A DNA stretch of 64,000 bases from Cytobacillus massiliigabonensis (GTDB taxonomy: Bacteria > Bacillota > Bacilli > Bacillales > Cytobacillaceae): NCBI RefSeq assembly GCF_900199725.1, contig NZ_LT904904.1, positions 344,412 through 408,411 on the forward strand. Reading direction: 5' to 3'. The notes under the pieces were generated by a model, which did no database searches, had not been told where the DNA came from, and saw nothing but the letters and a program-made list of their open reading frames with translations. Each line of letters opens with the position of its first letter. The stretch's first letter is position 1. This document shows, piece by piece, positions 4,376 through 54,090 of this stretch. The translations under genes were made by a program, and so were the position numbers.

Positions 4376-4480
4376 TTGGTTGATAAGAGGTCAGAATTGG
4401 CTGATAAACACACGAAATTGGCTGATAAATTAGTAGAATTGGCTGATAAAGGACTGAAATTGGCTGATAAATATTAAAAA
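4376..4480 (+). repeat. 21-bp tandem array R1 (five units, TTGGCTGATAAA core)
   Basis: Five units of exactly 21 bp at 4376, 4397, 4418, 4439 and 4460. Each has the fixed 12-mer TTGGCTGATAAA (first unit TTGGTTGATAAG) followed by about seven variable bases and AA. It lies between the kinase terminator and the ABC operon. It is one of six arrays with this spacing in the window. Confidence 0.95.
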
Positions 4481-4572
4481 TGGAAAAAACATGAGGTTTT
4501 TAAACGAATTTTAAACTTCGTTGCCCTTCGTTTTAACCAAGGCTGGTTATGATGGATACCGAGGTGATGGAG

Positions 4573-5487
4573 ATGAGTGAATTTATTATTGAAACAAATC
4601 AATTAACGAAGAAATTTTCGAAGAGATATGCGGTAGAGAATATTGATCTCAAAATAAAAAAAGGAGAAATCTACGGGTTCCTTGGTCCCAATGGAGCAGG
4701 GAAAACAACTACGATTCGGATGCTTCTTGGATTAGCCAAACCGACAAAAGGGTCTATTCATATATTTGGAAAGGATATGAAAAACGAAAAACTCAATGTT
4801 TTAAGAAGAGTAGGTTCTTTAGTAGAGTATCCATCCTATTACGGACATTTAAATGCGTACGAGAATTTGGAGGCTATTCGTATTCTGCTCGATGTGCCTA
4901 AATCAAGAATTAATGAAGTGCTTTCGATTGTAAGATTATCGAATGAGGCGAAGAGACCAGTTAAAGGATTTTCATTAGGAATGAAGCAAAGATTAGGGAT
5001 TGCAGCTGCACTTTTAGGGAATCCTGAGCTGCTTATCTTGGATGAACCAACAAATGGACTTGATCCTTCAGGTATCCTTGAAATAAGAGAACTCATTAAA
5101 AGTATGCCAAAAGAACATGGCATGACGATTCTCGTATCAAGCCATTTATTATCAGAAATGGAACAGATGGCAACCCAGGTTGGGATCATTTCAAAAGGAA
5201 AAATGATTTTTCAAGACTCTATTGAAACGCTTAGACAAAGAGCACAAAGTAAAATTGCTATTAAAGTAGATCAAACAGAGCTTGCATGGAGAAAGCTTCT
5301 CTCAAAAGGGAGGCAGGCAGAAATGGATAACAATCAAATATATCTTCCTCATACATCGGATGAAGAAATTTCTGCTGTGATTAGTGACCTTGTTCATGAC
5401 GACTTCTCTGTGTACAGAGTCCAGGAAGAGAAAAAATCGCTTGAAGATATTTTCCTGGAGCTTACTGGCGGGGAGGGGAGTCTGTAA
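4573..5487 (+). CDS. ABC transporter ATPase, lantibiotic/bacitracin-protection type
   Basis: ATP-binding subunit of an exporter of the BcrA/LanF class (304 residues). Walker A is GPNGAGKTT, the signature is FSLGMKQR (a variant common in this class), Walker B is LLILDEPTNGLDP, and the switch histidine is in SSHLLSEM. The C-terminal 90 residues are the usual extension that contacts the permeases. I chose the ATG at 4573, which has GAGGTG six bases upstream; further ATGs lie at 4549 and 4567 in frame. The stop overlaps the first permease start by one base. Substrate is unknown; antimicrobial peptide removal is the family expectation. Confidence 0.9.
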   Translation: MSEFIIETNQLTKKFSKRYAVENIDLKIKKGEIYGFLGPNGAGKTTTIRMLLGLAKPTKGSIHIFGKDMKNEKLNVLRRVGSLVEYPSYYGHLNAYENLEAIRILLDVPKSRINEVLSIVRLSNEAKRPVKGFSLGMKQRLGIAAALLGNPELLILDEPTNGLDPSGILEIRELIKSMPKEHGMTILVSSHLLSEMEQMATQVGIISKGKMIFQDSIETLRQRAQSKIAIKVDQTELAWRKLLSKGRQAEMDNNQIYLPHTSDEEISAVISDLVHDDFSVYRVQEEKKSLEDIFLELTGGEGSL

Positions 5488-6197
5488 TGCTGAGCATTCT
5501 AGCTTCGGACTTTATCAAGATAAAAAGAAAGATGATTTGGTTTTTGATATTTCTTGGCCCTTTCGGTGTTGTAGCACTCGAAGCTGTTAACTTTGGGCTT
5601 CGGTATGACTATTTAACAAAGGTTCATGAAAAGGATTTATGGGCGGGACTGATAGGCGAGGCAAACTATTTAGCCATTCCTGCCCTTATGCTTGGGCTGA
5701 CGCTTATTGCGTCGATGATTTCTAACATTGAGCATCAAACAAATGCATGGAAGCAGCTTCTTGCATTGCCTGTTTCAAAGCTGCAGGTTTTCACCGGGAA
5801 GTTTGTCTTAACAGCCCTTTTGCTTTTTGTATCAAGCACGTTTTTGTTAGCAGGGATTATTGTACTCGGTATCTTTCTTAAATTTGGAACAGACCTCCCG
5901 TTGCTTTCTTTGCTTAAAATGTCTTACTATCCTTATCTTGCGGCTATGCCTTTTATCGCCCTGCAAATCTGGCTTTCCGTCACAATGAAAAATCAAGCCA
6001 TCCCTTTGGTTATCGGAATTGTTGGTACGATTCTATCTTTGATGTCCTTTCGGTTCCCTGATTGGATGCCTTGGAAATGGCCATCATTAAATAATGGCTG
6101 GGATGATCCTTTGTATTCCGTCATTTTTGGACTTGCTTGCGGATTGGCCGTTTACTTGATTGGTTTGCTTGATTTTGCAAGAAAGGATGTGAAGTAA
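5487..6197 (+). CDS. ABC-2 type permease, lantibiotic-immunity family (first subunit)
   Basis: Integral membrane protein of 236 residues with about six hydrophobic segments. It carries the family motif WKQLLALPVS near residue 90, found in LanE/LanG-type permeases of peptide-protection exporters. It overlaps the ATPase gene by one base and the next permease by one base, so the three genes form a tight operon. It is a paralogue of the following gene. The N-terminus (ILASDFIKIKRKMIWFL) has the usual amphipathic start. The exported compound cannot be told from the sequence. Confidence 0.87.
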   Translation: MLSILASDFIKIKRKMIWFLIFLGPFGVVALEAVNFGLRYDYLTKVHEKDLWAGLIGEANYLAIPALMLGLTLIASMISNIEHQTNAWKQLLALPVSKLQVFTGKFVLTALLLFVSSTFLLAGIIVLGIFLKFGTDLPLLSLLKMSYYPYLAAMPFIALQIWLSVTMKNQAIPLVIGIVGTILSLMSFRFPDWMPWKWPSLNNGWDDPLYSVIFGLACGLAVYLIGLLDFARKDVK

Positions 6198-6922
6198 TGG
6201 GAAAGGTATTGAGGTCTGAGTTTTTAAAACTGAGAAAATCAGCCATATGGCTGTTAATTTTTATTAGTCCTGCTCTATCCTTTTTAGTTGGCCTTGGTGA
6301 ATCCGTGGAGGATATCCCACATAAATGGGAGATGGCGGTCACTTATATGGCATTTATACATGCTCTCTTATTTTTGCCATTGCTAACTGGTGTTTTTTCA
6401 GCCTTTATTTGCCGGTATGAGCATATTGGAGGAGGCTGGAAGCAGCTGCTTGCGATGCCTGTCTCCCGAGGCAATGTTTTTATCGCTAAATTCCTGATCG
6501 TCATTGGCCTGCTTGCTATCACACAGCTTCTATTTGCATCAGGAGTATTGCTTGTTGGACAATTAAAAGGGTTCGAAGAAGCGATTCCTTGGAAGACGAT
6601 AGCAATAAGCTCGTTAGGAGGATTGATTGCCTGCCTTCCGCTTGCTGCTCTGCAAATCTTTGTATCTGTTGCATGGTCAAGTTTTGCTGCTCCATTAGCT
6701 ATTAATGTTATATTTACACTGCCAAATATGTTAGTGGTAAACTCAGAAAAATATGGTCCATTTTATCCGTGGGCACAGCCATTTTTAGCAATGGTTCCAA
6801 CAGGACAGGATGGATTTGGAGCAATGAATGTAACGATGGAGACATTGCTGCTTGTCATATTGGGAAGTTTTATCTTGTTTTTCCTATCGGGATTTATATA
6901 TTTTCAAAGAAAAGAAATTTAG
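6197..6922 (+). CDS. ABC-2 type permease, lantibiotic-immunity family (second subunit)
   Basis: Second membrane subunit (241 residues, about six hydrophobic segments) with the same motif, WKQLLAMPVS, as its upstream neighbour, consistent with LanE/LanG pairs. The start ATG overlaps the upstream stop (TAATG). A good terminator follows 2 bases after the stop. With the ATPase it should make a heteromeric exporter in the cytoplasmic membrane. Control by the adjacent two-component system is inference. Confidence 0.87.
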   Translation: MGKVLRSEFLKLRKSAIWLLIFISPALSFLVGLGESVEDIPHKWEMAVTYMAFIHALLFLPLLTGVFSAFICRYEHIGGGWKQLLAMPVSRGNVFIAKFLIVIGLLAITQLLFASGVLLVGQLKGFEEAIPWKTIAISSLGGLIACLPLAALQIFVSVAWSSFAAPLAINVIFTLPNMLVVNSEKYGPFYPWAQPFLAMVPTGQDGFGAMNVTMETLLLVILGSFILFFLSGFIYFQRKEI

Positions 6923-6923
6923 C

Positions 6924-6950
6924 TCCTTCCAATTTTGGAAGGATTTTTTT
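6924..6950 (+). terminator. Rho-independent terminator of the ABC exporter operon
   Basis: Nine-base-pair perfect stem TCCTTCCAA / TTGGAAGGA with a two-base loop, then seven T. Confidence 0.9.
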
Positions 6951-7258
6951 GTATTTGGGAAAGTAGTATAGTAATTTTCACTAATTTTTCACAAAAATTT
7001 TCAACAATTTATTGAACAAATGATCTTTCTTTAAATTGCCACTATCTAAACGTGATAAATGTTACTGCCGTTATAGCTTGTTCCTTTTACTATAAATACT
7101 GTAAGAATAAATTTTCACATTAATCTCATATTTTATTGCAAGTTTTCGTGATAATTGTCGCAGAAGAGTTAAAACGGTTCTTCTTATAATAAAAAGGGAG
7201 ATCATTCCGTATACACATGATATGGCTTACGCTTCCTTTAGCAAAAGGGGTGGAAACG
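6951..7258. other. AT-rich gap before the formate dehydrogenase island
   Basis: About 300 bases without a gene. It should contain the promoter of fdhD. A TATAAT lies at 7185-7190, but I see no convincing -35 box at 16-18 bases. I also find no palindrome of the FNR type (TGTGA, six bases, TCACA) in it. Nothing else recognisable. Confidence 0.5.
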
Positions 7259-8023
7259 ATGAATAAAAAGGGATGTCCTGAGGAGTATCCGATTACTCTC
7301 ATAATAAATGGGTATGAGGTAGCCGTTTTCCAGCTGACAAATCAAGATTTGGAGGACTGGGTTTACGGCTATTTATTTTCTGAAGGAATGATAGAAGAAG
7401 CAGAGGATATTCAGTCTATTGCTTGTGAAGAAGGCTCTGGAACACTTTCAGTCATTTTAAGGGAAGGGTTTAATCCTGAAATAATGTTTTCGAAGAAGAA
7501 GCACTACACGGCTGGCTGTGGAAGAGGAGTAACCTTTTTTTCCATGACAGATGTGAAGACATTTAATAAGGTGCAATCCAACAATACGTATCTATTAAGC
7601 TACATTTTGAAGAAGCGCAGTGAATTTGCTAAAAACTCTCCATTGTATACGGAAACAGGGGGCATGCATGGTGCCTGTATTGTTCATGCAAATGGAGAAA
7701 TAGTGATTCGTGAGGATATCGGCAGGCATAATGCGGTTGATAAAATTATTGGACATGCGATCAGGAAAAAGTGCAGTCCGGAAGAGTTGATATTGCTGAC
7801 AACTGGGAGGGTTTCTTATGAAATGCTTTCGAAAGCAGCAAAGTTTGGCTTTTCTGTTATTGGATCAAGAACAGCTGCGACAAAGCAGGCTATTCAGTTA
7901 GCGAAATTTCTAAATATTGAGGTAGTTGGCTATTTAAGGGGAAGAATGGCTATCTTATATACGTCATTCGGAAGGGTCATTAACGATCTGGAAGAAAAAA
8001 ATGCGGGGGTTCATCCAAACTAA
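7259..8023 (+). CDS. fdhD: Formate dehydrogenase accessory sulfurtransferase FdhD
   Basis: FdhD transfers sulfur from a cysteine desulfurase to the molybdenum cofactor of formate dehydrogenase, and is needed for enzyme activity. The protein has the family start EYPITLIINGYEVA, the loop YTAGCGRGVTFFS holding the conserved cysteine, ETGGMHGA, and REDIGRHNAVDKIIG. I chose the ATG at 7259, which follows GGGGTGG; an in-frame ATG 42 bases upstream lacks a ribosome site. Length is 254 residues. It heads the island and lies 45 bases before fdhF. Only one cysteine is visible in the active loop rather than a CxxC pair, as I recall for several Gram-positive versions. Confidence 0.93.
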   Translation: MNKKGCPEEYPITLIINGYEVAVFQLTNQDLEDWVYGYLFSEGMIEEAEDIQSIACEEGSGTLSVILREGFNPEIMFSKKKHYTAGCGRGVTFFSMTDVKTFNKVQSNNTYLLSYILKKRSEFAKNSPLYTETGGMHGACIVHANGEIVIREDIGRHNAVDKIIGHAIRKKCSPEELILLTTGRVSYEMLSKAAKFGFSVIGSRTAATKQAIQLAKFLNIEVVGYLRGRMAILYTSFGRVINDLEEKNAGVHPN

Positions 8024-8068
8024 TTGGGTTTTATATATGTTCTATTTATGGAAAAGAGGGGAATATAG

Positions 8069-11047
8069 ATGGAATTTACAAGAAGGCAGTTTCTGAAATT
8101 GACCGGGGCTGTGGCAGCAACTCTCGCGGTTGTTGAGCTTGGCTTCGACGATAAAGGAGCGAGAGCAAAAACAAGAGAGTTCAAGATTGCAGAACTTAAG
8201 CCTACACCAACCATTTGTCCTTATTGCGCGGTTGGCTGCGGTATTTTAGTTTATTCTAAAGGCGATGATGTGGTGTATACGGAGGGGGATCCGGATCATC
8301 CAATCAATGAAGGAAGCTTATGCAGCAAGGGAACAACTGTAAGACAGGTGTATACAAGTGAAAAACGGATAACCAAACCGATGTACCGTGCACCTGGAAG
8401 TGATAAGTGGAAAGAAGTAGATTGGGACTTTGCGCTTGAAAAGGTAGCAAAAAATATTAAAGAAACACGTGACCGTACATTTATCCATAAGGAAAATGGA
8501 CTGACAGTCAATAGAACAGACTCTATTGCCTATCTTGGCGGTGCAGCATTAGATAACGAAGAGTGCCATTTGCTGCAGAAATTGTTCCGCGCTGGACTCG
8601 GACTCACCTATATTGAACACCAGGCCCGAATATGACATAGTTCAACGGTTGCCGGTCTGGCACCTACATTTGGTCGTGGAGCAATGACAAACCACTGGAA
8701 TGATCTTCAGCATGCCGATGTATTAATGATTATCGGTGCGAATCCCGCTGAAAATCATCCAATTAGCTTTAGATGGATATTAAAAGCACTAGAAAAAGGC
8801 GGGAAGCTTATCTCTGTTGACCCGCGTTTTACAAGAACCTCGCAAATGGCAAATGTGTACGGCCAGCTTCGTTCAGGAACGGACATTGCCTTTATCGGAG
8901 GGATGATTAACTATGTGCTGCAGAACGAATTATTCCATAAAGAATATGTCGCTTCTTATACAAATGCTTCTTATATTGTGGAAGACACGTATTCATTTAA
9001 TGATGGAATGTTTAGCGGCTATGATAAAGGAAAGAGAAGCTACGATAAAACGAAGTGGGCTTTCAAAACGGATAAGGATGGAAAAACGCTTAAAGATCCA
9101 ACTCTAAAAGATCCGAAGTGTGTGTTCCAGCTGATGAAGAAGCATTTTTCCCGTTATGATATTGACACCGTTATTGGTGTAACAGGCACTTCGAAGGAAA
9201 CGTACGAAGAAATATGCAAAACATACGCTTCAACTGGTGAAGTAGGAAAAGCGGGTACAATCCTATATGCAATGGGTGGAACACAGCATACGGTAGGTAC
9301 GCAAAACATTCGCTCTTATGCGATTCTTCAGCTGCTTCTTGGAAACATTGGAATTTCTGGAGGCGGTGTGAATGCATTGCGCGGAGAATCTAATGTTCAA
9401 GGTTCAACCGATTTCGGTCTTTTATATGATAATGTGCCAGGATACATGCAAGTTCCTACAACTGCAGAAACAGATTTTACTTATCAAGGGTTCCTTGACC
9501 GGATCACCCCTAAAGACGGCTATTGGGTAAACAAGCCGAAGTTCTACACAAGCATGATGAAATCCTTCTATGGGGACAACGCAACAAAGGCAAATGAATT
9601 TGGCTATCACTACTTGCCTAAGCTTGCAGCAGGCAAAAATTATTCATTTATGCGATTGTTTGATGCGATGCATCGGAAAGAGCTTGAAGGTTTATTGTTA
9701 TTTGGATCAAATCCTGCCGTTGGCGGACCAAATGCAGGGAAAGAAATCGAGTCTCTCAGCAATCTAAAGTGGATGGTTGCAGTAGACCTTTTCGAAACAG
9801 AAACTTCTTCTTTCTGGCAAAAAGAAGCAGGAGCAGACCCAGCGTCGATTCAGACGGAAGTTATATTCCTTCCTGCAAGCGGTTCTTTTGAAAAAGAAGG
9901 CTCGGTTACGAATTCAGGACGCTGGATGCAATATCGCTGGCAAGCCATTAAGCCAAAGGGTGAATCGAAGGCGGATTTAGAGATTGTGCATATGCTCGCG
10001 CGTCGTTTAAAGGATATGTATAAAAATAGCTCAAATCCAGCAGATATGCCAATGAAGGCAATGACATGGGACTACGGTGAAAGTGACCACCCTGATATTG
10101 ATCTCGTTTGCAGAGAAATAAATGGCTATGACATGAAAACGAAAAAACAAGTAAAAATATTTGGTGATTTAAAGGATGATGGATCTACATGCAGTGGTAA
10201 CTGGATCTATTGCGGTTTCTACCCTGAAAATGAAAACCTGGCTAAACGCCGGGACAGCACAGATGAAGGAATGGGCAATTTCCTGAATTGGTCATATGCA
10301 TGGCCAGCCAATCGCCGTATCCTTTATAACCGTGCAAGTGCGGACCTGAATGGAAAGGCATGGAGCAAGACAAGAGTTGGCATCGAATGGAATGCTGCTG
10401 AAGGAAAATGGAAGGGAAATGACGTTCCAGATTTCGTTGTAACGAAGGGACCAGATGATCCAACTTTTGTTGATCCGTTCCTTATGATGGCAGGAGGAAA
10501 AGGAGCATTATTTGCTTCTATTAACGAAGGACCGCTTCCTGAACATTACGAGCCATATGAAAATCCGATGTCAAATTCATTCTCAAGTGTTCAGCTGAAT
10601 CCAGCCGTGCAATTTGGTGAAGAAGAAATGAATGCACAAGGGGATGTATCAAAGTATCCAATTGTTGCAACTACCTATCGTCTATCCGAGCATTGGCAAT
10701 CTGGAGCGATGACGCGAAGCCAGGAATGGCTGGCAGAGCTTGTTCCTCATATGTTCGTAGAGATCAGTGAGGAATTGGCAAAAGAAAAAGGCATTAAAAA
10801 TAAGGATAAAATCATTGTTTCATCCGCACGTGGTGAAATTAATGCTTATGCAATGGTGACGAAGCGTTTTAAACCATACAAATTAAAGGATAAAACGGTT
10901 CACCATATCGGTATGCCATGGCATTTTGGATATAAAGGCATTGTCACAGGCGGCTCAGCAAACCGCTTAACACCGCATATTGGAGATGCAAACTCAACAA
11001 TACCAGAATACAAAGCATTCCTTTGCGATGTTAGGAGGGCAAAATAA
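8069..11047 (+). CDS. fdhF: Selenocysteine-containing formate dehydrogenase, catalytic subunit (UGA read through)
   Basis: Molybdopterin- and Fe-S-containing catalytic subunit, 992 residues when the in-frame TGA at 8633-8635 is read as selenocysteine (U189). The flanking residues EHQARI-U-HSSTVAGLAPTFGRGAM match the Sec site of FdnG-type formate dehydrogenases. The N-terminus has a Tat signal (TRRQFLKLTGAVAATLAVV), so the enzyme is exported folded. The 4Fe-4S motif is CPYCAVGC plus a fourth cysteine in GSLCSKG. Downstream lie the bis-MGD domains and the C-terminal molydopterin-dinucleotide-binding fold with YRLSEHWQSGAMTR. A SECIS hairpin begins 11 bases after the UGA. It is followed at a one-base overlap by the Fe-S subunit gene. 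This is a whole gene, not two fragments. Confidence 0.95.
8633..8635 (+). other. In-frame UGA decoded as selenocysteine
   Basis: The TGA falls exactly where FdnG/FdhF enzymes carry the Mo-ligating selenocysteine or cysteine, between conserved QAR- and -HSxTVAGLAPTFGRG. The frame resumes without any shift on the other side. Confidence 0.95.
8647..8664 (+). promoter_or_regulatory. SECIS element for selenocysteine insertion
   Basis: GGTTGCC-GGTCT-GGCACC forms a stem-loop with a single bulged U in the 5' arm and the loop GGUCU. The bulged U and apical GGU are what SelB recognises in E. coli fdhF, and the spacing of 11 bases after UGA is the same as I recall for E. coli fdhF. Confidence 0.93.
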
Positions 11048-11865
11048 TGGCTGAAACAATTAAATTAGTGGATGTAACAAAATGTGATGGCTGCCGTGCA
11101 TGCATGGTGTCATGTAAGAACTGGAATGATCTCCCATCTGAAATGGAGGATTTCCATGGAAGCTATCAATCTCATGAAAAGATTACGGCAAATACATGGA
11201 ATGTCTTAACTTTTAATGAACAAGAAAGAAGTGATGGCGGGCTTGACTGGCTTTTCCGCCATTCCTCCTGCTTGCATTGTACGGAGGCTGCATGTGAGAA
11301 GGCTTGTCCAGAAAATGCGATTAGCCATACAGAGTTTGGATCAGTTGTTGTTGATTATGATACATGTGTTGGCTGTGGCTACTGTGTACAGGCATGTGGG
11401 TTTGATGCAATCAATCTAGCAACATATGTAGATAAAAATGGAAAAGAGTTCAGGAAGGCACAAAAATGTACACAATGTACGGACCGTTTAGAGGAAGGGC
11501 TCCAGCCTGCGTGTGCAACTGCTTGTCATACAGGAGCGATTGTTTATGGGGATAAGGATGAACTTCTTTCCTCAGCTGAGGATCGTTTAGCGCAGATTAA
11601 AGAGCGTTACCCGAATGCAAACATATACAATCCACAAGGCATTAGCGGAACAAATACGGTGTATATCCTTGCTGATAAACCGACAACATACGGTTTACCA
11701 GAAAACCCTAAAGTGGCTCTTTCGCAAATAGTTTGGAAGGATTATGCACAGCCAATTGGAAAAATGATGCTTGGTGCGACAACAATGGCCGTTATTGGTT
11801 CATTCATCGCAACCAATTTAAACAAGAAGAACCATTCCAGTGAAGGAGACCAGAGCCATGAATAA
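11047..11865 (+). CDS. Formate dehydrogenase Fe-S subunit (FdnH/FdhB type)
   Basis: Electron-transfer subunit of 272 residues with four ferredoxin-type cysteine groups: CDGCRACMVSC near residue 12, CLHCTEAACEKAC near 78, CVGCGYCVQAC near 109, and CTQCTDRLEEGLQPACATAC near 140. These hold four 4Fe-4S clusters that carry electrons from the catalytic subunit to the cytochrome. A C-terminal hydrophobic helix (MMLGATTMAVIGSFIATNL, about residues 239-257) anchors it in the membrane, as in E. coli FdnH. It overlaps fdhF by one base and the cytochrome gene by eight bases. Confidence 0.95.
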   Translation: MAETIKLVDVTKCDGCRACMVSCKNWNDLPSEMEDFHGSYQSHEKITANTWNVLTFNEQERSDGGLDWLFRHSSCLHCTEAACEKACPENAISHTEFGSVVVDYDTCVGCGYCVQACGFDAINLATYVDKNGKEFRKAQKCTQCTDRLEEGLQPACATACHTGAIVYGDKDELLSSAEDRLAQIKERYPNANIYNPQGISGTNTVYILADKPTTYGLPENPKVALSQIVWKDYAQPIGKMMLGATTMAVIGSFIATNLNKKNHSSEGDQSHE

Positions 11866-12532: not shown

Positions 12533-12578
12533 CCATTCATATCCTTGGGATAATTGATAACCGAATAATAATAGAGAG

Positions 12579-12616
12579 GAGCTACCCTGGATAAAGGGTA
12601 GCCTTTACTCTCTTAA
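12579..12616 (+). terminator. Hairpin between the cytochrome and fdhE genes
   Basis: Eight-base-pair perfect stem GCTACCCT / AGGGTAGC with a six-base loop, flanked by AGAGAG and CTCTCT that can extend it. There is no clear T-run, so it may act as partial terminator or RNA-processing/stability site separating structural genes from fdhE. Confidence 0.5.
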
Positions 12617-12634
12617 ATGAAAGTGGTGTTTTCG

Positions 12635-13438: not shown

Positions 13439-13461
13439 TTTTCAGGAGCAGGTGAGAAGAA

Positions 13462-15308: not shown

Positions 15309-15321
15309 GGGGTGGAATTAG

Positions 15322-19438: not shown

Positions 19439-19442
19439 TAGT

Positions 19443-23857: not shown

Positions 23858-23889
23858 AAGAGCTAGTCACTTATGTCTAGCTCTTTTTG
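23858..23889 (+). terminator. Rho-independent terminator of pta
   Basis: Nine-base-pair stem AAGAGCTAG / CTAGCTCTT, loop of ten, then T-run. Confidence 0.88.
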
Positions 23890-23897
23890 ATATAATG

Positions 23898-24040
23898 GGT
23901 TTGGCGAATATACGGCTACATTTGGCGAATAAAATGGAATTTTGTCCAATAAAAGTCGGTGGACGGCGAATAAAATAAAATTTTGTCCAATAAAGGTAAG
24001 CGGACGGCGAATAAAATACTGAAGCCGTCCAATCATTGAT
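23898..24040 (+). repeat. 20-21-bp array R2 (GGCGAATAAA alternating with GTCCAATAAA)
   Basis: Seven units with the core positions at 23906, 23927, 23947, 23968, 23988, 24009 and 24030, spacings 21, 20, 21, 20, 21, 21. Units alternate between GGCGAATAAAA and TTGTCCAATAAA. The first unit (GGCGAATATA) and last (GTCCAATCAT) are degenerate. It lies just 3' of the pta terminator. Confidence 0.92.
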
Positions 24041-32979: not shown

Positions 32980-33807
32980 ATGGGATTATGGTTTACTGAG
33001 AAACAAACAGAAAATTTCGGAATTACAATGAAAATTAAGCAGACTTTACATACAGAGCAAACAGATTTTCAAATGCTTGAAATGGTTGAAACAGAAGAAT
33101 GGGGAAATATGCTTTTGCTTGATGGCATGGTTATGACCTCTGTGAAAGATGAATTTGTCTATCACGAAATGGTGGCGCATGTGCCATTATTTACACACCC
33201 TAATCCAGAAAACGTCCTTGTAGTAGGCGGAGGCGACGGCGGTGTCATTCGTGAGGTGCTTAAGCATCCGAGTGTGAAGAAAGCAACACTTGTTGATATC
33301 GATGGAAAAGTAATCGAGTATTCGAAGAAGTTTTTACCGGAAATTGCTGGCATGCTGGATGATCCGCGCGTGGACGTTCAAGTTGGAGACGGCTTCATGC
33401 ATATTGCTGAAAGTGAAAATGAATACGATGTCATTATGGTTGATTCAACTGAGCCAGTAGGTCCTGCTGTTAACCTGTTTACAAAAGGATTTTACGCAGG
33501 GATTTCTAAAGCGCTAAAGGAAGATGGCATTTTCGTTGCTCAATCGGACAACCCTTGGTTTAAGGCAGACTTAATCCGCAATGTTCAAAAGGATGTAAAG
33601 GAAATCTTCCCAATTACAAACCTATATGTTGCAAACATTCCTACTTATCCAAGCGGCATGTGGGCATTTACCATTGGTTCAAAAAAATATGATCCATTAG
33701 CGGTTAGTGAAGAACGCTTCCATGAAATTGAAACAAAATATTATACGAAGGAACTTCATAAAGCAGCATTTGTCTTGCCAAAATTTGTGCAGGATTTAGT
33801 GAAGTAA
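32980..33807 (+). CDS. speE: Spermidine synthase (polyamine aminopropyltransferase)
   Basis: Transfers aminopropyl from decarboxylated SAM to putrescine. It has [19 protein letters not shown] at the start, the [14 protein letters not shown] segment, and the SAM-binding [16 protein letters not shown] and [16 protein letters not shown], then [16 protein letters not shown] with the catalytic aspartate. Length is 275 residues. The ATG at 32980 follows AAGGGATG. The frame is open 81 bases further upstream, but that stretch overlaps the A5 repeat and is not conserved. Array R3 begins 15 bases after the stop. Confidence 0.95.
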
Positions 33808-33821
33808 CCTAGATTTTCAGA

Positions 33822-34165
33822 AATAAAGGCTATATTGCAAATAAAATGAGGTTTTGCAAATATAATGTTAATTTCGCAAATAAAGTTAGGAATTTGCAAA
33901 AATAAAGGTAATATTGCAAATAAAATGAGGTTTTGCAAAAATAATGTTAATTTCGCAAATAAAATTGAGATTTTGCAAAAATAAAGGCAAATTTCGCAAA
34001 TAAAGTTAGGAATTTGCAAAAATAAAGGCAAATTTCGCAAATAAAGTTAGGAATTTGCAAAAATAAAGGGAATTTCGCAAATAAAGCTGGATCCCGCAAA
34101 AATAATAGAAATACCGCAAATTAAAGCGTACCTTTTGCAAATAAATCCAGCCTTTTTGCAAAAAA
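33822..34165 (+). repeat. Long 20-bp array R3 (TTTCGCAAATAAA / TTTGCAAAAATAA), about 17 units
   Basis: GCAAA cores begin at 33837, 33856, 33876, 33896, 33916, 33935, 33955, 33975, 33996, 34016, 34037, 34057, 34077, 34096, 34116, 34137 and 34158, a spacing of 19-21. Units mostly alternate TTTCGCAAATAAAG and TTTGCAAAAATAA. Bases between cores vary but some (GTTAGGAA, AATGTTAA, AATGAGG) recur, showing higher-order duplication. It fills the speE-speB gap. Confidence 0.95.
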
Positions 34166-34215
34166 GACCAAAGGAGCTTCATGCTCCAAATACATATAAA
34201 CGAGGGATGACAGGC

Positions 34216-41226: not shown

Positions 41227-41266
41227 ATTATTGAAATGGAATATGTAAATTTTTTTATATCCTTTT

Positions 41267-41445: not shown

Positions 41446-41506
41446 ACATTTTATTTATGAGTGGATTTTGAATATTTAAGTTTAATTGAAAAAAGGAGAG
41501 ATTCGA

Positions 41507-42694: not shown

Positions 42695-42804
42695 GTGGCT
42701 ATCTAACCTATTGAAAAAATTTTCGTTTTTATTATCTGAAATCTACGTAAATTGACTAAATTTGAAATACATTATTCAACGAGCAAATTGGGGGAGCAGA
42801 GAAA

Positions 42805-43656: not shown

Positions 43657-43667
43657 GAGAATGTTGT

Positions 43668-43775
43668 CTTTTGTCGAATAATCGATATATCAGATATTTC
43701 GCAGATAAATGAATGATTTTCGTAGATATATCTTAAATTTCGCAGATAAGTTATCTGTTTTCGCAGATAAATAGG
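43668..43775 (+). repeat. 20-21-bp array R4 (TTTCGCAGATAAA core)
   Basis: Cores at 43676 (degenerate TCGAATAAT), 43701, 43722, 43742 and 43763, the last four spaced 21, 20 and 21. Unit TTTCGCAGATAA with variable filler. It starts 12 bases after the hydroxyacyl-CoA dehydrogenase stop. Confidence 0.88.
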
Positions 43776-43834
43776 TGCGATCAGAAAAAAGTCTAATATA
43801 TAACACCGAAGAATGAGGTCCGGAGGGGATTTAA

Positions 43835-44965: not shown

Positions 44966-44998
44966 AACAAATCCCATCAATAATGGAGGATAGATGAT

Positions 44999-46138: not shown

Positions 46139-46269
46139 GGCTTGCATGCAAAAAGAGTTTTAAAGCGGGGTTTCCTCGAAGATCTAGATCGTCTAAGTCT
46201 GCCACACCTGCTGAAAACTTGCCCTAAAGGCATACTTGAAATTGGGGATTGATAAAGGCGGTAGGTAAA

Positions 46270-46908
46270 GTGAAAAAACGTGAAGTACAAGCGTCTGTGA
46301 AAGACGAACGGCTCGTTAAAAAGAGGCGGGATCAAATGATTAAAGGTGCGGTAACCCTTTTTATTCAAAAAGGGTTCCACCGTACAACAACAAGGGAAAT
46401 TGCCAAGGCTTCCGGATTTAGCATTGGCACTTTATATGAATACATCCGGACGAAGGAAGATGTCTTATATCTTGTGTGTGACAGCATTTATGATCAGGTG
46501 AGCGAACGCCTGCAGGAAGATCTCGATACAAACCGGGGAACACTTGAAAGCTTAAGGATTGGCATTGCGGGATATTTCAAGGTGGTTGATGAGATGCAGG
46601 ATGAGGTTCTCGTCATGTATCAGGAGGTAAAATCCCTATCAAAGGATGCCTTGCCTTATGTTCTCAAGAAGGAACTTGAAATGGTTGATATGTTTGAGCA
46701 GGTCATAAATGGCTGTGTAGAAAATGGGGAATTAGACTTAACGGAGGAGCAGGTCAAAATGATTGCTCACAACATCTTTGTTCAAGGGCAAATGTGGGCA
46801 TTCCGCCGCTGGTCTTTGAAAAAAATCTATACAATCGATGATTACATTAAGCTGCAAACTGATTTGCTTTTTCAAGGAATCATCAATGAAAAGGTTAAGC
46901 AGAAATAG
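46270..46908 (+). CDS. TetR/AcrR family regulator of the acyl-CoA cluster
   Basis: A 212-residue repressor. The N-terminal helix-turn-helix is at about residues 15-60 (KKRRDQMIKGAVTLFIQKGF, then TTTREIAKASGFSIGTLYEY), and the C-terminal ligand-binding domain is all helical with FQGQMWAFRR-like end (VQGQMWAFRRWSL). I chose GTG at 46270 because AGG lies just upstream; an in-frame TTG at 46249 has no usable site. Located between acyl-CoA dehydrogenase and icmF, it most likely senses acyl-CoA and may bind the operators near 38877 and 41267 (inference). Confidence 0.85.
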   Translation: MKKREVQASVKDERLVKKRRDQMIKGAVTLFIQKGFHRTTTREIAKASGFSIGTLYEYIRTKEDVLYLVCDSIYDQVSERLQEDLDTNRGTLESLRIGIAGYFKVVDEMQDEVLVMYQEVKSLSKDALPYVLKKELEMVDMFEQVINGCVENGELDLTEEQVKMIAHNIFVQGQMWAFRRWSLKKIYTIDDYIKLQTDLLFQGIINEKVKQK

Positions 46909-46912
46909 AGGG

Positions 46913-47001
46913 AAATGGCTGAAAAATTTTCAGAATTGCTAGATAAACAGTGCGAGATAACTGAACAAAGTTGCTCGATAAACCATGAAACATGCTAGAT
47001 A
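46913..47001 (+). repeat. 20-21-bp array R5 (TTGCTAGATAAA / TTGCTCGATAAA)
   Basis: Core GC dinucleotides at 46918, 46938, 46952, 46973 and 46994, spacings 20, 14, 21, 21. Units include ATTGCTAGATAAAC, GTGCGAGATAAC, GTTGCTCGATAAAC and CATGCTAGATATGG. It begins five bases after the TetR gene stop and ends 30 bases before icmF. Confidence 0.82.
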
Positions 47002-47030
47002 TGGAATCAATCGAATTGAGGGGGAGAAGA

Positions 47031-50000
47031 ATGAGTAATCCAGAAGTTTATAAGCCAAAGAATCATATTCGTTTTGTTACAGCTTCCAGTCTTTTTGATG
47101 GTCATGATGCCTCCATTAATATTATGAGAAGAATTATTCAGGCAAGCGGCGCAGAGGTCATTCATCTTGGCCATAACCGTTCGGTTGAAGAAGTGGTCAA
47201 TGCAGCCATTCAAGAGGATGTTCAAGGGATTGCGATATCTTCCTATCAAGGAGGACATGTTGAATACTTTAAATATATGTACGATCTTTTAAAGGAAAAA
47301 GGCGCGCCGCACATCCGAATTTATGGCGGCGGGGGCGGCGTTATTATTCCGAAAGAAATGAAGGAACTGCATGAATACGGAATCGCGAGAATCTTTTCTC
47401 CTGAAGACGGGCGGCAAAATGGGCTTCAAGGCATGATCAATGTGATGCTTGAGGAATGTGACTTCCCGACGTTCAACACAGAAGCAACAGAGCAAATCGA
47501 AAAATTACAAGACGGGCAAGTGAATGCGATTGCGAAGCTCATTACACTTGCAGAGCACCATGTCAGCATGGAAAAAGAAGCAGCTGCCGCACTAGATTCT
47601 GTAATGGAAAAGGTAAAAACATTAGAAAAATCTGTTCCGGTTTTAGGAATTACAGGTACCGGAGGAGCGGGAAAAAGCTCATTAACTGATGAATTAATTC
47701 GCCGTTTTATTAATGAAATTCCAGAAAAGAAGGTCGCAATCCTATCAGTCGACCCGACGAAACAGAAAACAGGCGGGGCTCTTCTTGGTGACCGCATCCG
47801 CATGAATGCCATCTTTAATTCTCGCGTATATATGCGAAGCTTAGCAACAAGACAATCGAAAAGCGAGCTATCACTCGCCATTAAGGATGCCATTTCTGTC
47901 GTCAAAGCGGCAGGCTTTGATCTCATCGTTGTTGAAACGAGCGGAATAGGGCAAGGGGATGCTGAAATAACTGAAATTTGCGACGTTTCAATGTATGTGA
48001 TGACGAGTGAATTTGGTGCCCCATCACAGCTTGAAAAAATTGATATGATCGATTACGCCGATTTAATTGTCATTAACAAATTTGAACGAAAAGGCTCAGA
48101 GGATGCAAGACGCCAAGTTCAGAAGCAGTACCAAAGAAGCCATATGCTGTTTGAAAAAGAAATGGATGAAATGCCGGTATACGGAACCATTGCCAGTCAA
48201 TTCAATGATCCGGGAACAAATGCTGTTTTCGCAGCCTTAATTGAAAAGATTAATGAAAAGTCTGGAACAGATTGGCAAACCTCTTTTTCTAAAAATGCGC
48301 TAGTCGAAAAACAAAACGTCATTATTCCAAATGAGCAGCGCTATTATTTAAGAGAAGTATCTGAGACTGTTCGCGGCTATCATAAGAAAGCAAATGAACA
48401 GGCGGACCTTGCCCGCAAGCTGTTCCAGCTTGAAGGGGCCATTCTTGCAGTGAAAGAGCAGGGTGCAAACGAGGAAGTTCTTGCATCATTAGAACAGGTG
48501 AAAGCCGATACTGAAGCAAAGCTCACATCAGAAACAAAGAAGATTCTTGACGGCTGGGAAGACTTAACGAAAAAGTACACGGGCGAACAATTTGTCACGA
48601 AAATACGTGATAAAGAAATTTTGACGATTTTAAAGACAAAAAGCCTGTCAGGTCTGTTAATTCCAAAGGTCGCATTGCCGAAATACAAGGATTATGGAGA
48701 AATCATCCGCTGGGTGTACAGAGAAAACGTTCCAGGATCCTTCCCATATACAGCAGGCGTTTTCCCGTTCAAGCGTGAAGGAGAAGATCCGAAGAGACAG
48801 TTTGCTGGAGAAGGAACACCGGAAAGAACAAATCGCCGTTTCCATTATTTATCAAAGGACGATTCAGCAAAGCGTCTAAGCACGGCATTCGACTCGGTTA
48901 CTCTTTATGGAGAAGATCCAGATTACCGTCCAGATATTTATGGAAAAGTAGGGGAAAGCGGAGTTAGTATTTGTACGTTAGATGATATGAAAAAGCTTTA
49001 TGCAGGCTTTGACCTTTGTCATCCATCTACATCTGTATCGATGACCATTAATGGTCCGGCGCCAATTATTCTTGCGATGTTTATGAATACGGCGATTGAA
49101 CAGCAAATCGAGGCGAAGGAACAAGAACTTGGCCGGATATTAACGGAAGCGGAATTTGCAGAAGTAAGGGCACTTACTTTGCAAACCGTTAGGGGAACCG
49201 TTCAAGCGGATATTTTAAAAGAAGACCAGGGCCAGAATACATGTATTTTCTCGACAGAATTTGCTCTCCGGATGATGGGGGATATTCAGCAATACTTCAT
49301 CGATCAAAAGGTTCGCAATTATTATTCGGTATCCATCTCCGGATACCATATTGCTGAAGCTGGAGCAAATCCAATTTCACAGCTTGCCTTCACACTTGCT
49401 AACGGCTTTACGTATGTGGAGTATTATTTAAGCAGAGGCATGGATATTAATGATTTTGCACCAAACTTATCGTTCTTCTTCTCAAATGGTCTGGATCCTG
49501 AATATACAGTGCTTGGTCGTGTGGCGCGCCGCATTTGGGCTACGGTAATGAGAGATAAGTATGGAGCGAATGAACGAAGCCAAAAGCTAAAGTATCATAT
49601 TCAGACATCAGGTCGTTCGCTTCATGCGCAGGAAATTGATTTCAATGATATTCGAACTACATTGCAGGCATTAATGGCTCTTCATGATAACTGTAATTCC
49701 TTGCATACGAATGCGTACGATGAGGCAATTACAACGCCAACAGAGGAATCTGTCCGCAGGGCAATGGCGATACAAATGATTATTACGAAAGAGCATGGGT
49801 TAACAAAAAATGAAAACCCGCTGCAAGGCGCATTTATTATTGATGAATTAACAGATTTAGTTGAGGAGCAGGTGCTTCAAGAATTCGAACGAATCAATGA
49901 TCGCGGCGGTGTGCTCGGTGCAATGGAAACACAATACCAGCGAGGAAAAATCCAAGATGAGTCGATGTATTATGAAATGCGAAAGCATACTGGTGAGCTG

Positions 50001-50297
50001 CCAATTATTGGCGTTAACACATATTTAAATCCAAATCCTCCTTCAGAGGAAGAGATGAACAATATGGAGCTGGCAAGAGCCACGAAGGAAGAAAAAGAAA
50101 CACAAATCCAGAATTTGCGCAGCTTCCAGGAAAGAAACAAAGGGAAAACAGATATTGCTCTGAAACACTTGAAGGAGACAGCGGTCAGCGGCGGAAATAT
50201 TTTTGCCGAACTGATGGAGACAGTCCAAGTAGCAAGTCTTGGTCAAATAACAAGGGCGCTTTATGAAGTTGGGGGCCAGTATAGAAGGAATATGTAA
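47031..50297 (+). CDS. icmF: Fused isobutyryl-CoA mutase IcmF
   Basis: Coenzyme B12-dependent enzyme interconverting isobutyryl-CoA and n-butyryl-CoA, 1088 residues. Domains: B12-binding at about 12-150 (cobalt-ligand histidine H25 in FDGHDAS, with SSYQGGHVE and GGGGGVI), MeaB-like G-protein chaperone at about 200-420 (P-loop [12 protein letters not shown]), linker, and the mutase barrel at about 540-1088. Substrate-site residues fit isobutyryl-CoA: F in AGVFPFKR where methylmalonyl-CoA mutase has Y, and Q in KEDQGQNT where it has R. I chose the ATG at 47031 after GAGGGGGAG; an in-frame ATG at 46992 lies inside array R5. A terminator follows. Confidence 0.95.
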
Positions 50298-50320
50298 TTT
50301 TAAATGGGAGATTAGGAGGA

Positions 50321-50350
50321 GGAAATCGGTGCTGCAGCCGATTTCCTTTT
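50321..50350 (+). terminator. Rho-independent terminator of icmF
   Basis: GGAAATCGG / CCGATTTCC, loop of eight, then TTTTG. Family A copy A6 begins immediately at the T-run. Confidence 0.88.
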
Positions 50351-50470
50351 GTCTAGCTGCGGCTCCTAGGGGCTCGAGTCATAAGTCAGTCTGGCTAGAA
50401 GGTTAAAGAACAACCTTCCATCCAGCCTGTCTTATGCTTGTCGCCCCTGAACAGTCGCCTCCGCATTTCA
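50350..50470. repeat. Dispersed palindromic element, family A (copy A6)
   Basis: GTCTAGCTGCGGCTCCTAGG at the left, CAGTCGCCTCCGCATTTC at the right. Arms CATAAGTCAG / CTGTCTTATG and inner hairpin AAGGTTAAAGAACAACCTT. Confidence 0.87.
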
Positions 50471-50472
50471 GT

Positions 50473-50590
50473 TTGTCTAGCTGCGGCTCCTAGGGGCGAC
50501 GTACAGGACGTACTAGTGTCGACCATGCGACAGGACGTCGCGTTTTTGTCGACCTCGAGGTCATAAGTCAGTCAGGCAAGCAGTCACAGG
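50473..50590. repeat. Family A element, 3'-truncated (copy A7)
   Basis: Begins GTCTAGCTGCGGCTCCTAGG and carries the GACGTACAGGACGTACTAG block also found in A2, but breaks off after CATAAGTCAGTCAGGC. It is directly behind A6 in the same orientation. Confidence 0.82.
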
Positions 50591-50707
50591 TATGTATGGT
50601 TTTCAAAAAATTTCTTTCCTTGCTTATACTTTCCTTTGTGAATCCGATATAATCGAATATAGTAAAACGTGTACTTCACAGATTTGATAGAGCAGGGTGT
50701 GAAATAA

Positions 50708-50905
50708 GTGAAACGGATTTTTGTTTTTATTGGACTATTAGGGGTTTGTATTGGAACAGTCTATCTATATCAGAGGCAATTAGGGGCAATCCCGTTTTTA
50801 TTAATATCCATTTATTTCTTTATTTTAGCCTACAAACAGCTCTCAAAAAAACCAAATCAATGTGACGAAGAAGAAAAAGAGAAGAAAAACGACAGATATA
50901 GCTAG
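50708..50905 (+). CDS. Small two-helix membrane protein, unknown
   Basis: A 65-residue protein: two hydrophobic helices (about residues 3-20 and 27-43: IFVFIGLLGVCIGTVYLY and AIPFLLISIYFFILAY) and a charged acidic/lysine tail (CDEEEKEKKNDRYS). It starts at GTG; the upstream AGCAGGGTGTGAAATAA offers a weak ribosome site. I do not recognise the family. It stands alone between repeats and rpoE. Moderate confidence that it is a real gene. Confidence 0.55.
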   Translation: MKRIFVFIGLLGVCIGTVYLYQRQLGAIPFLLISIYFFILAYKQLSKKPNQCDEEEKEKKNDRYS

Positions 50906-51055
50906 CATAAACAGAAAAATTTTGTTTATAATGAAGAATATGCATTTTAGACCATGCGAATGAAGCAGAATCAATATGTTTAGTAATATTTTTTTGGTTT
51001 ATTTCCCCTTTAAAGAAAGCGCTGAAGGGTTACATAGAGAAAGGACGTGCAAATA

Positions 51056-51619
51056 TTGAGTTTACAAGAATACTCGAAAGAACAATTGCAGGAAATGTCT
51101 TTAATTGAAATCGCATATGAGTTATTAAAGGGAAGAAAAGAAGCTTTGCCTTTCAAAGTAATTATGGATGAAATAACAAATCTTCTTGATCTTTCAGACG
51201 AACAAGTTAGAGCAAAAATTGCGCAATTCTATACAGATTTAAATATTGATGGCCGTTTCTTGGGCTTGGGAGATAACACATGGGGTCTCCGTGTTTGGTA
51301 TCCAATCGATCAAGTGGAAGAAGAAGTGGTAACAGATATTAAGCCGAAGAAGAAGAAGGCGAAAAAGGCTTCGGATGATGAAGATTTAGACCTTGACGAT
51401 TATGATGATTTAGATGAAGAAGATATTGATTATGATGATATTGATGATTTAGAAGAAGATTTACTTGATGAAGATGATGATGACGATTTAATCGAAGATG
51501 AAGAGGATTTAGAGGATGATCTTCTTGATAAAGATGAAGAATTCGATCTTGATGATGAAGATGAGGAACTAGAGGATGACGAGCTTGATCTTGATGAAGA
51601 GGACGAAGAAGATTTATAA
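51056..51619 (+). CDS. rpoE: RNA polymerase delta subunit
   Basis: Delta factor of Gram-positive RNA polymerase (187 residues), which speeds recycling and raises sensitivity to the initiating NTP. The N-terminal HARE-HTH domain is at residues 1-90 (EYSKEQLQEMSLIEIAYELL, then IAQFYTDLNIDGRFL and NTWGLRVWYP). A lysine patch KPKKKKAKK follows, then a tail of about 80 residues almost wholly D/E. I chose TTG at 51056, as in B. subtilis; a GTG nine bases earlier adjoins AAAGGAC. No separate terminator is seen before the pyrG attenuator. Confidence 0.93.
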   Translation: MSLQEYSKEQLQEMSLIEIAYELLKGRKEALPFKVIMDEITNLLDLSDEQVRAKIAQFYTDLNIDGRFLGLGDNTWGLRVWYPIDQVEEEVVTDIKPKKKKAKKASDDEDLDLDDYDDLDEEDIDYDDIDDLEEDLLDEDDDDDLIEDEEDLEDDLLDKDEEFDLDDEDEELEDDELDLDEEDEEDL

Positions 51620-51621
51620 TC

Positions 51622-51664
51622 TTGACTTTTTCCTAGCAGGCTTGTAGAATCATTTTTGGGCTCC
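51622..51664 (+). promoter_or_regulatory. pyrG promoter with GGGC start for CTP-dependent slippage
   Basis: TTGACT at 51622-51627, 17-base spacer, TAGAAT at 51645-51650, and the transcription start GGGCTCC at 51658, eight bases downstream of the -10. In B. subtilis, pyrG transcripts also start GGGC, and low CTP causes stuttering that adds extra G residues. The -35 lies three bases after the rpoE stop. Confidence 0.88.
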
Positions 51665-51696
51665 TTTTAAAAAGGAACGATTCATTATACACGTAC

Positions 51697-51738
51697 AGCG
51701 CTCCCTTACTTTTTATTAAGTAAGCGGAGCGCTTTTTA
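51697..51738 (+). terminator. pyrG attenuator hairpin
   Basis: AGCGCTCC pairs with GGAGCGCT, with TTACTT / AAGTAA inside, then a T-run. The 5' arm contains CTCCCTTACTTTTT, a C/U-rich stretch able to pair with the poly-G 5' end made at low CTP, which would prevent termination. It should also end rpoE transcripts. Confidence 0.85.
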
Positions 51739-51802
51739 TTTTTTCTGTATAAGAAATTATATAATCGAATGATGTGTGCAAATTTTATAATGGGGTAGCT
51801 AC

Positions 51803-52050
51803 GTCTAGCTCCAGCGCCTACCCCCTCGAGGTCACAAGCTTGTCTAGTTGCGGCTCCTAGGGACTCGTGTCATAAGCCAATCCCTTTCAGAAGGTAAAAT
51901 ACACCTTCTTACAGGTCTTGTCTTATGCAGTCGTCCCTGGGCAGTCGCCTCCACTTTTCTAGCAATCCTTACAGAAAGGAAAAGAGCTCCTTTCTGTAAG
52001 GCTCGTCTTGTGCTTGTCGGGGGTGAGCAAGGAGCTTGCGCATTTGATTT
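51803..52050. repeat. Family A element interrupted by another family A element (copy A8)
   Basis: Outer copy: left part 51803-51839 (GTCTAGCTCCAGCGCCTACC to CACAAGC), right part 51963-52050 (CAATCCTTACAGAAAGG to GAGCTTGCGCATTTG). Between them, 51840-51962, lies a complete inner copy beginning TTGTCTAGTTGCGGCTCC and ending CCACTTTTCTAG. Joining the outer parts restores the normal CACAAGC-CAATCC arrangement. No clear target duplication. Confidence 0.88.
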
Positions 52051-52132
52051 TTGCATCGCTAGACCCTCTAAATCAAAACTTTTTTCAAGAATATTGTTGT
52101 TATTTGCTTAGTTTTGAATCAGCTTTGGCAGC

Positions 52133-52200
52133 GAAAATTGACTGGAGCGGAAAACAGCCTCTCTGCCAACTATGATGCAATAAATAGCAGCAATGTTTGT
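52133..52200. repeat. Relic of family B (copy B4)
   Basis: GACTGGAGCGGAAAACAGCC and GCCAACTATGATGCAATAA match only the 3' end of family B copies. The rest of the pyrG leader up to 52300 shows no further structure apart from AT-rich sequence. Confidence 0.6.
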
Positions 52201-52291
52201 GAAACCAGAAACATCAAGCCGTGGATCCGGTATGATGATTTCTTTAATTATGTCTTTAAATAAAGGCGAATATGTACAAACTGATACTTAA

Positions 52292-53908
<1,617 letters not shown>

Positions 53909-53910
53909 GA

Positions 53911-53940
53911 GAAAACCCCCGCTAACTTGGCGGGGGTTTC
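53911..53940 (+). terminator. Rho-independent terminator of pyrG
   Basis: AAACCCCCGC / GCGGGGGTTT, loop of seven. Confidence 0.92.
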
Positions 53941-53949
53941 ACTATAGGC

Positions 53950-54090
53950 GAGTTTGGTCCGTAAATTTCAAAAGTGGCCTGTAAAACAATGAAAGTGGTC
54001 TGTAAATTTCAAAAGTGGCTCGTAAATCAATGAAAGTGGCCCGTTATTCTCCAAAAGTGGTCCGTAAATTCAGAAATGAGGCCTATAGCT
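53950..54090 (+). repeat. 20-21-bp array R6 (GTGGTCCGTAAAT core)
   Basis: GG cores at 53956, 53976, 53996, 54017, 54038, 54059 and 54080, spacings 20, 20, 21, 21, 21, 21. Units such as AAAGTGGCCTGTAAAACAAT and AAAGTGGTCTGTAAATTTC alternate filler TTTCAA and CAATGA. It lies between the pyrG terminator and the end of convergent ywjG. Confidence 0.92.

Follow-up and report, generated by a model that had tools for sequence, protein, structure and literature searches.

A 64,000-nucleotide stretch of Cytobacillus massiliigabonensis DNA (assembly GCF_900199725.1, contig NZ_LT904904.1, forward-strand positions 344,412 to 408,411; hereafter the window) carries six short intergenic arrays of direct repeats, starting near positions 4376, 23898, 33822, 43668, 46913 and 53950, and raises the question of what such arrays are, given that their units recur about every two turns of the DNA helix and that each array has a motif of its own. 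A sequence-only reading had assigned them to 3′ untranslated regions and had suggested either local slippage with selection or a DNA- or RNA-binding partner. The arrays proved to be real and to belong to a wider phenomenon; no description of them was located in an open-access library, subscription papers being outside the search.

A two-turn period in intergenic DNA

The genome that carries the window comprises 5.23 Mb in 8 contigs, and the SpeE protein of the window shares 97% identity with its counterpart in Bacillus sp. FJAT-29790 and 93–96% with those of Cytobacillus loci high among the matches listed. A strict detector, requiring four or more units and a core identity of 0.75 or above, was applied to 181 loci totalling 3.6 Mb, namely 61 from this genome, 20 each from two genus-mates sampled in part (G001 and G019), and 80 named loci, the latter being the best 80 of at least 578 relatives fetched by SpeE, so that close relatives dominate. 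It returned 77 intergenic arrays with a period of 20/21 bp, compared with 5 summed over 13 other period pairs, and the chance-level frequency of such spacings, which the sequence-only reading had offered as its own refutation, was not seen in the sampled sequence. This genome contributed 19 of the 77, G001 three, G019 none and the named loci 55, while six strict-detector arrays lay inside genes. Unit spacings in the intergenic DNA of the 80 named loci are concentrated on the same two values (26 counts at 19 bp, 373 at 20, 637 at 21 and 15 at 22), and in a spacing scan of 40 stretches of this genome plus the window, the distances between near-matching intergenic 11-mers peak at 20, 21, 39–42, 79–80 and 52 bp.

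At least one array was present, within about 20 kb, in 37 of the 80 named loci, including loci of Cytobacillus, Neobacillus, Mesobacillus, Metabacillus, Psychrobacillus, Paenisporosarcina, Rossellomorea, Fredinandcohnia and Ectobacillus. No array was found in the other 43, among them B. xiamenensis, B. safensis, two Anoxybacillus and Priestia, where a single 20-kb locus per genome is weak evidence of absence. The array-bearing samples hold about one array per 47–64 kb, scattered over the sampled stretches. The spacing of 20–21 bp that had been read from the window holds in general, with steps of 19–21 bp in array 33822, and the placing of all cores on one face of the helix holds to first order, as all-20 and all-21 arrays both occur. 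Compensation of the phase by a step of 20 followed by one of 21 was considered and found without evidence, the arrays being often all-20 or all-21. A genome-wide pattern of three RTAAA motifs failed as a test (33 forward and 7 reverse matches, against 106 and 13 for the reversed control), and we think that the reversed control also matches GCAAATA-type arrays.

The two-turn period does not stand alone. Among the 181 loci, intergenic period clusters between 24 and 120 bp fall at 26 (1), 39–42 (17), 51–52 (24), 79–84 (11) and 102–104 bp (19), and extending the range to 9–23 and 121–319 bp adds 20–21 (14) and otherwise mainly values near multiples of 41–42 and 52; periods of 12, 13, 23, 128, 151, 153, 185 and 186 bp occurred singly, and those that recur are all near multiples of 20/21 bp or of 52 bp. 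The 52-bp arrays, which correspond to five turns, were surveyed in outline, with some clusters adjoining masked bases. Their sequence differs by locus (e.g., L032 7799–8580, L036 7380–7865 and L248 17230–17594), several contain inverted half-sites such as GTCCGAA..TTCGGAC and CCTTCAT..ATGAAGG, and out of twelve harmonics the fifth (10.4 bp) dominates in 9 of 19 arrays (p = 8e-6, with some rows not independent). The existence of two classes, at two and at five turns, makes a helix-based cause more likely.

Placement and direction

Genes were taken as longest open reading frame (ORF) calls, uncurated, and the leading strand was assigned for each locus from GC skew. With flanking genes normalised to the leading strand, arrays occupy 36 of 799 tandem leading (++), 24 of 338 convergent (+-), 4 of 427 divergent (-+) and 0 of 126 tandem lagging (--) regions. 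They hence follow a leading-strand gene in 60 of 64 regions (p = 4e-7 against not following one), and the comparison of lagging–lagging with leading–leading regions gives p = 0.010. The rule does not extend to the 52-bp class, for which 21 of 22 clusters were distributed as ++ 9, +- 6, -- 4 and -+ 2.

The common direction of reading seen in the window was borne out more widely, since a confident direction could be assigned to 50 of the 77 arrays and 40 of these run with the leading strand (23 of the 28 from tandem regions and 11 of the 16 from convergent ones). A weak array at L042 19228–19308, outside the strict set, is opposed to both of its co-directional flanking genes and breaks the direction rule. 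Among the 60 arrays no more than 400 bp from an upstream leading-strand gene, 34 are separated from that gene by a predicted terminator (20 of 38 for tandem regions, 14 of 22 for convergent ones), so that many arrays lie outside the mature transcript of the preceding gene.

Conserved cores, drifting spacers and phased AT-rich DNA

The wording of the repeats is highly variable: 71 distinct 12-mer consensuses were obtained from the 77 arrays, shifted versions of one motif included, and merging those that share an 8-mer leaves 36 groups. The statement that every locus has its own motif is correct inside the window; elsewhere in the genome cores recur, the GTGGCC[C/T]GTAAA type at six loci and TTGGCTGATAAA at three. 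Part of the analysis made use of a looser first set of 75 arrays, which contains at least two doubtful rows (L121 and L094) and was not screened for masked bases. A motif search in this set recovered a weak skeleton, NGCNRATAWA, in agreement with the "G/C start, then ATAAA" described before, the search having been begun from a similar pattern; likewise, the common-core score was trained on the first set with a starting pattern of our own.

Unit-to-unit identity in 67 of the 75 arrays is 0.76–0.89 over 12 positions and about 0.32 in mid-spacer, the low value being partly due to choice, as these arrays were selected for at least four units and a spacer identity below 0.6. Without a spacer filter, the contrast in identity between core and spacer was 0.46, compared with 0.19 under uniform divergence (70 arrays, 322 simulations), and 56% of the 70 arrays exceeded the 95th percentile of this null, where the best 12-mer was picked in real and simulated arrays alike. 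A core of 12 bp is kept while the spacer of 8–9 bp drifts, both within arrays and across orthologues.

Averaged over 50 skeleton-fitting arrays, the AT content shows two peaks per unit, at positions 5–9 and 15–19, which are about 10 bp apart. The second of these lies outside the alignment motif, and spacer AT content is higher at positions 15–18 than at 11–14 in 45 of the 50 arrays, with the reverse in 4 (p = 9e-8). Relative to shuffles, the Fourier power of AT content is 7.75-fold at 10.3 bp and 2.87-fold at 20.6 bp, compared with 1.27 at 10.3 bp in non-array intergenic stretches (n = 190). The one-turn harmonic is the largest of five, relative to shuffles, in 57 of 77 arrays. When raw power is compared instead, it leads for AT content in 39 of 51 skeleton-high arrays and also in 16 of 26 skeleton-low ones, and for purine and keto patterns in 22 and 15 of 77, so that AT-rich DNA phased at one helical turn, rather than any wording, is the most widely shared property. 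This suggests that the shape of the DNA is kept as much as its exact letters. RNA structure was considered as a common feature and is not supported, the fold z-score in the first set having a median of -0.15 on the sense and -0.42 on the antisense strand, with 24% below -2.

Turnover of cores and units at fixed sites

In the speE-speB interval the window holds a TTTGCAAAAATAAA-type array, the relatives L069 and L071 hold TTGGCTGATAAA arrays, and the nearest of 30 genus-mates searched (G014) holds none, so that the core at a given site can differ from species to species. In other bacilli (L079, L083, L087, L103, L104, L105, L108 and others), the same spacer contains short inverted motifs such as GGGGGTCAGACCCC, GGGGGACAGTCCCCC or GGTGCCTGTCACC, which appear to be another kind of dispersed repeat. 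The site behind pta has at least three in-phase cores in 18 of 29 genus-mates, compared with 2 of 290 shuffles, with cores and unit numbers that differ; it thus persists through the turnover of its cores. The pyrG loci of relatives do not enter these counts. In 25 of the 29 (L162–L190), a TGnTATAAT motif occurs no more than 130 nt past the stop of pta, and could place the array at the start of a downstream transcript.

Comparison of the window with G014 at arrays 2, 4, 5 and 6 (numbered in the order of their positions) revealed differences at 22 of 233 core sites and 30 of 126 spacer sites (p = 4e-4), where the cores were labelled manually and the end of array 6 aligned poorly; array 4 taken by itself differs at 1 of 65 core and 9 of 37 spacer sites. 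Five pairs of named loci, whose orthology was judged by position and motif, gave 34 of 271 and 47 of 150, and all pairs pooled, non-orthologous ones included, 248 of 1245 and 276 of 759. In orthologous arrays core sites are hence about 2.5 times less diverged than spacer sites, and the cores are constrained relative to the spacers. The number of units varies among relatives, at the pta site of the genus-mates as well as in arrays 2, 5 and 6 compared with G014, and block duplications are seen as periods of 41, 42 and 79–84 bp. In the G014 orthologue of array 5, the short step is 7 bp longer and a further 21-bp unit is present, which makes five units 21 bp apart. These results support local homogenisation together with selection, as the sequence-only reading had supposed.

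Comparison with described systems

CRISPR arrays have repeats of about 23–50 bp and spacers of similar length, and were rejected on unit size, the cores here being 12 bp and the spacers 8–9 bp long. The arrays behave as variable-number tandem repeats insofar as unit number differs between relatives. Plasmid iterons are directional direct repeats at replication origins, and REP/BIME-2 elements are extragenic, lie 3′ of genes and are rare in divergent regions. The placement of the arrays is like that of REP/BIME-2 (60 of 64 after a leading-strand gene, 4 of 427 divergent regions), and a palindromic unit of the REP kind was not found, the median fold z-score being -0.15 (24% of 75 below -2) and 50 of 77 arrays being directional. 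E. coli BIME-2/REP elements and the extended gyrase motif (PMC6379681) share with the arrays an intergenic or operon-end position, a length of about 100–130 bp, a base composition phased at 10 bp and an enrichment downstream of transcribed operons. Phasing of this type, near 10 bp over some 130 bp, is also seen in the arrays, with an AT peak at 10.3 bp (7.75-fold) and a median length of 103 bp. REPs, in contrast, are palindromic and have a family sequence, whereas the arrays are directional direct repeats with variable cores and a two-turn spacing.

The operators of the head-to-tail oligomer BldC resemble the arrays in being directional direct repeats with an AT-rich patch and a C-G contact, variable in repeat number and bent on binding; their repeats are of 9 bp, and those described are at promoters (PMC5859096). 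The arrays share with BldC operators and iterons their directional, helix-phased direct repeats, and differ from both in density (about one per 47–64 kb), in lying after genes and in their variable cores. TAACTGA heptamer repeats of Beggiatoaceae, Cyanobacteria and Bacteroidetes likewise form many short intergenic sets of directional direct repeats per genome, without a known partner, but consist of one fixed 7-bp sequence that lies mostly just upstream of start codons in the genome described there (PMC4679880). The arrays, which vary in sequence, keep a fixed period of 20/21 bp and come after genes, do not belong to them by either cores or placement. Finally, intergenic AA/TT signals with helical periodicity and curved DNA are reported from bacteria, with curvature peaks in E. 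coli often downstream of coding sequences (PMC516772). These signals are statistical, near 11 bp and not described as tandem arrays, whereas the present arrays are discrete, at 10.3/20.6 bp.

The arrays of the window and their surroundings

All six arrays, on the + strand, can be read directly in the sequence, and functions of the neighbouring genes were taken from NCBIfam. Five of them (4376, 23898, 33822, 43668 and 53950) are as described before, regular and recognised by the strict detector, and tandem-repeat finding likewise reports five; the one at 46913 is present but missed by both, and the regularity ascribed to it did not stand. A search of the window against Rfam at the gathering threshold gave two matches, neither at an array, in keeping with the absence of a known family noted earlier. 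A protein-coding role was rejected, as 20-bp steps break the frame.

Array 1 (4375..4471) has five TTGGCTGATAAA-type units 21 bp apart, follows a sensor histidine kinase gene, with an ABC ATPase gene as its other neighbour (NCBIfam), and is preceded by a weak predicted terminator (4345..4374, +), a hairpin of -11.2 kcal/mol followed by a T run. Array 2 (23900..24036), with GGCGAATAAA and GTCCAATAAA units at 20/21 bp, lies between pta and the gene for octanoyl-[GcvH]:protein N-octanoyltransferase (both by NCBIfam). A predicted intrinsic terminator of pta (23860..23888, +) stands ahead of it, and the two are separated by the extended -10-like TGATATAAT (23888..23896, +), which could be a promoter for a transcript downstream of pta, with array 2 at its start. 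Array 6 (53953..54086) has six GTGG[CT]C[CT]GTAAA-type units at 20/21 bp between pyrG (+) and a converging - strand gene (54120–54677), and a hairpin resembling an intrinsic terminator of pyrG, seen by eye and not called by the terminator scan, precedes it (AACCCCCGC..GCGGGGGTT, then T; 53914..53939, +). The location of arrays 1 and 2 past predicted terminators and of array 6 past a terminator-like hairpin, together with the possible start of a downstream transcript at TGATATAAT, argues against 3′ untranslated regions as the rule.

Array 3 (33813..34166), with about 17 units of TTTGCAAAAATAAA and TTCGCAAATAAA between speE and the agmatinase gene speB (NCBIfam), is split in two by the strict detector, and a - strand ORF within it (33756–34040) was taken as an artefact of the repeat. 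Array 4 (43670..43771) consists of TTTCGCAGATAAA units at 20/21 bp after a 3-hydroxybutyryl-CoA dehydrogenase gene. Array 5 (46917..47003), between a TetR-type regulator gene and a 1101-aa ORF (46992–50297), has five varied GCTAGATAAA-type units at 46917, 46938, 46952, 46973 and 46994, that is, with steps of 21, 14, 21 and 21 bp, one being 7 bp short.

Elsewhere in the window, the gene for a formate dehydrogenase alpha subunit (8069–11047, +) contains an in-frame UGA (8633–8635) and an Rfam SECIS_3 element (8630–8688), and its product is likely a selenoprotein in a bacillus. Rfam also places an L31-Firmicutes ribosomal protein leader at 62023–62054, at the start of a called ORF (62007–62270), the true start of which is probably further on.

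A proposed scaffold at transcription-unit ends and its alternatives

We propose, with a probability of roughly 0.55 taken over either partner, that the arrays are DNA-level, helix-phased scaffolds at the ends of leading-strand transcription units, whose partner would be an oligomer or gyrase. Each unit spans two helical turns, with a directional 12-bp core (loosely NGCNRATAWA) and a second AT-rich patch about 10 bp off, so that AT-rich minor grooves would face one side every 10.3 bp across about 100 bp. The arrays lie past the 3′ ends of leading-strand genes, in intergenic regions of the tandem and convergent kinds. A protein may contact successive units on one face and bend or wrap the stretch. 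It could be a head-to-tail oligomer that recognises the core, or gyrase guided by the phased AT pattern, and the array might then mark or isolate the transcription-unit end as a topological sink or as a barrier to read-through or collision. Whole units are gained and lost by slippage, which homogenises each locus and lets the cores turn over between species, with selection retaining the phase, the AT pattern and a core. Period, phasing, the contrast between core and spacer conservation, direction, placement and turnover are shown by the data, and from there binding, partner and function are inferred; by our analysis, a head-to-tail oligomer would account for direction and core, and gyrase for phasing and placement, neither for all.

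Several observations weigh against this proposal. The near-identity of units inside an array is due to slippage, not function. Density is uneven, with no strict array in 0.40 Mb of G019, where the pta site (L182) does hold four in-phase cores. Some arrays have a period of 20 and others of 21, with the phase drifting along long ones, and 10 of the 50 confident arrays read against the leading strand. Static curvature predicted from a wedge model exceeds that of shuffles modestly (z-score mean 1.67, median 0.77, 32% above 2). Some RNA or cruciform structure may exist, as 24% of the 75 arrays fold at z < -2 on each strand and array 33822 reaches -2.5 sense and -6.3 antisense, array 4376 -2.2 sense. 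Lastly, arrays 33822 and 43668 are flanked by co-directional genes, the terminator scan called nothing ahead of either, and both are therefore probably transcribed.

Gyrase can also be considered in its own specific form, which makes up a share of the scaffold proposal as well: the arrays would be a Gram-positive counterpart of BIME-2, at which DNA gyrase wraps the DNA and relaxes positive supercoils ahead of transcription at gene ends. The E. coli case fits, as the gyrase motif has a 10-bp-phased G/C variation over about 130 bp and cleavage sites are concentrated in BIME-2 and behind highly transcribed operons (PMC6379681), and the arrays are AT-phased at 10.3 bp, have a median length of 103 bp and are found after genes and in convergent pairs. 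A repeated directional core is not required by gyrase, however, which leaves the conservation of the 12 bp and the orientation bias unexplained, and we consider this form doubtful, if the best placed of the alternatives. The idea that an oligomeric RNA-binding protein binds the transcribed array at many points, and so sets the stability or translation of a neighbouring mRNA, is somewhat more doubtful still, and the RNA half of the partner suggested by the sequence-only reading is its weaker half. The direction of the arrays, which in most cases is that of the gene before them (23 of 28 confident ++ cases), the lack of a called terminator ahead of arrays 33822 and 43668, a possible position of array 2 in the 5′ leader of the next gene and the 24% that fold at z < -2 would all suit such a platform, but 34 of 60 arrays (14 of 22 convergent ones among them) lie past a predicted terminator, none of 126 lagging-strand tandem regions carries an array even though those genes make mRNA too, folding is inconsistent (median z-score -0.15), and the phasing is close to the DNA helical repeat; terminators, lagging-strand absence and inconsistent folding together make an RNA role less likely. 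That the arrays are functionless tandem duplications, with slippage favouring two-turn steps, is improbable: unit number does vary between genus-mates, blocks are duplicated (periods 41, 42 and 79–84), array 3 is present or absent between close relatives, and scarcity in divergent regions (4 of 427) is as for harmless inserts, yet neutral slippage alone is insufficient given the core constraint (orthologous core sites about 2.5 times less diverged than spacers) and spacers that retain phased AT, and the pta site keeps its array despite changed cores while 0 of 126 lagging–lagging regions have one.

Implications

More tentatively than the scaffold proposal itself, we suggest that Bacillaceae and their relatives may possess an element class in which selection acts on helical phase over sequence, with periods almost confined to whole turns (20/21 and 52 bp) and a wording that varies by locus and species, the two-turn class of which would form a bent or wrapped boundary at the ends of leading-strand transcription units. 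If the proposal is right, the element would escape similarity searches, because its wording is less widely kept than its spacing and AT phasing, and would be present in a large number of genomes (an array was seen in 37 of the 80 named loci). The fast change of unit number and core at fixed sites makes the arrays useful as markers. If the proposal is true, the strand bias would tie the element to the direction of replication, and the arrays would offer a natural test of whether selection acts at gene ends on the shape of the DNA, on supercoiling or on the control of collisions.

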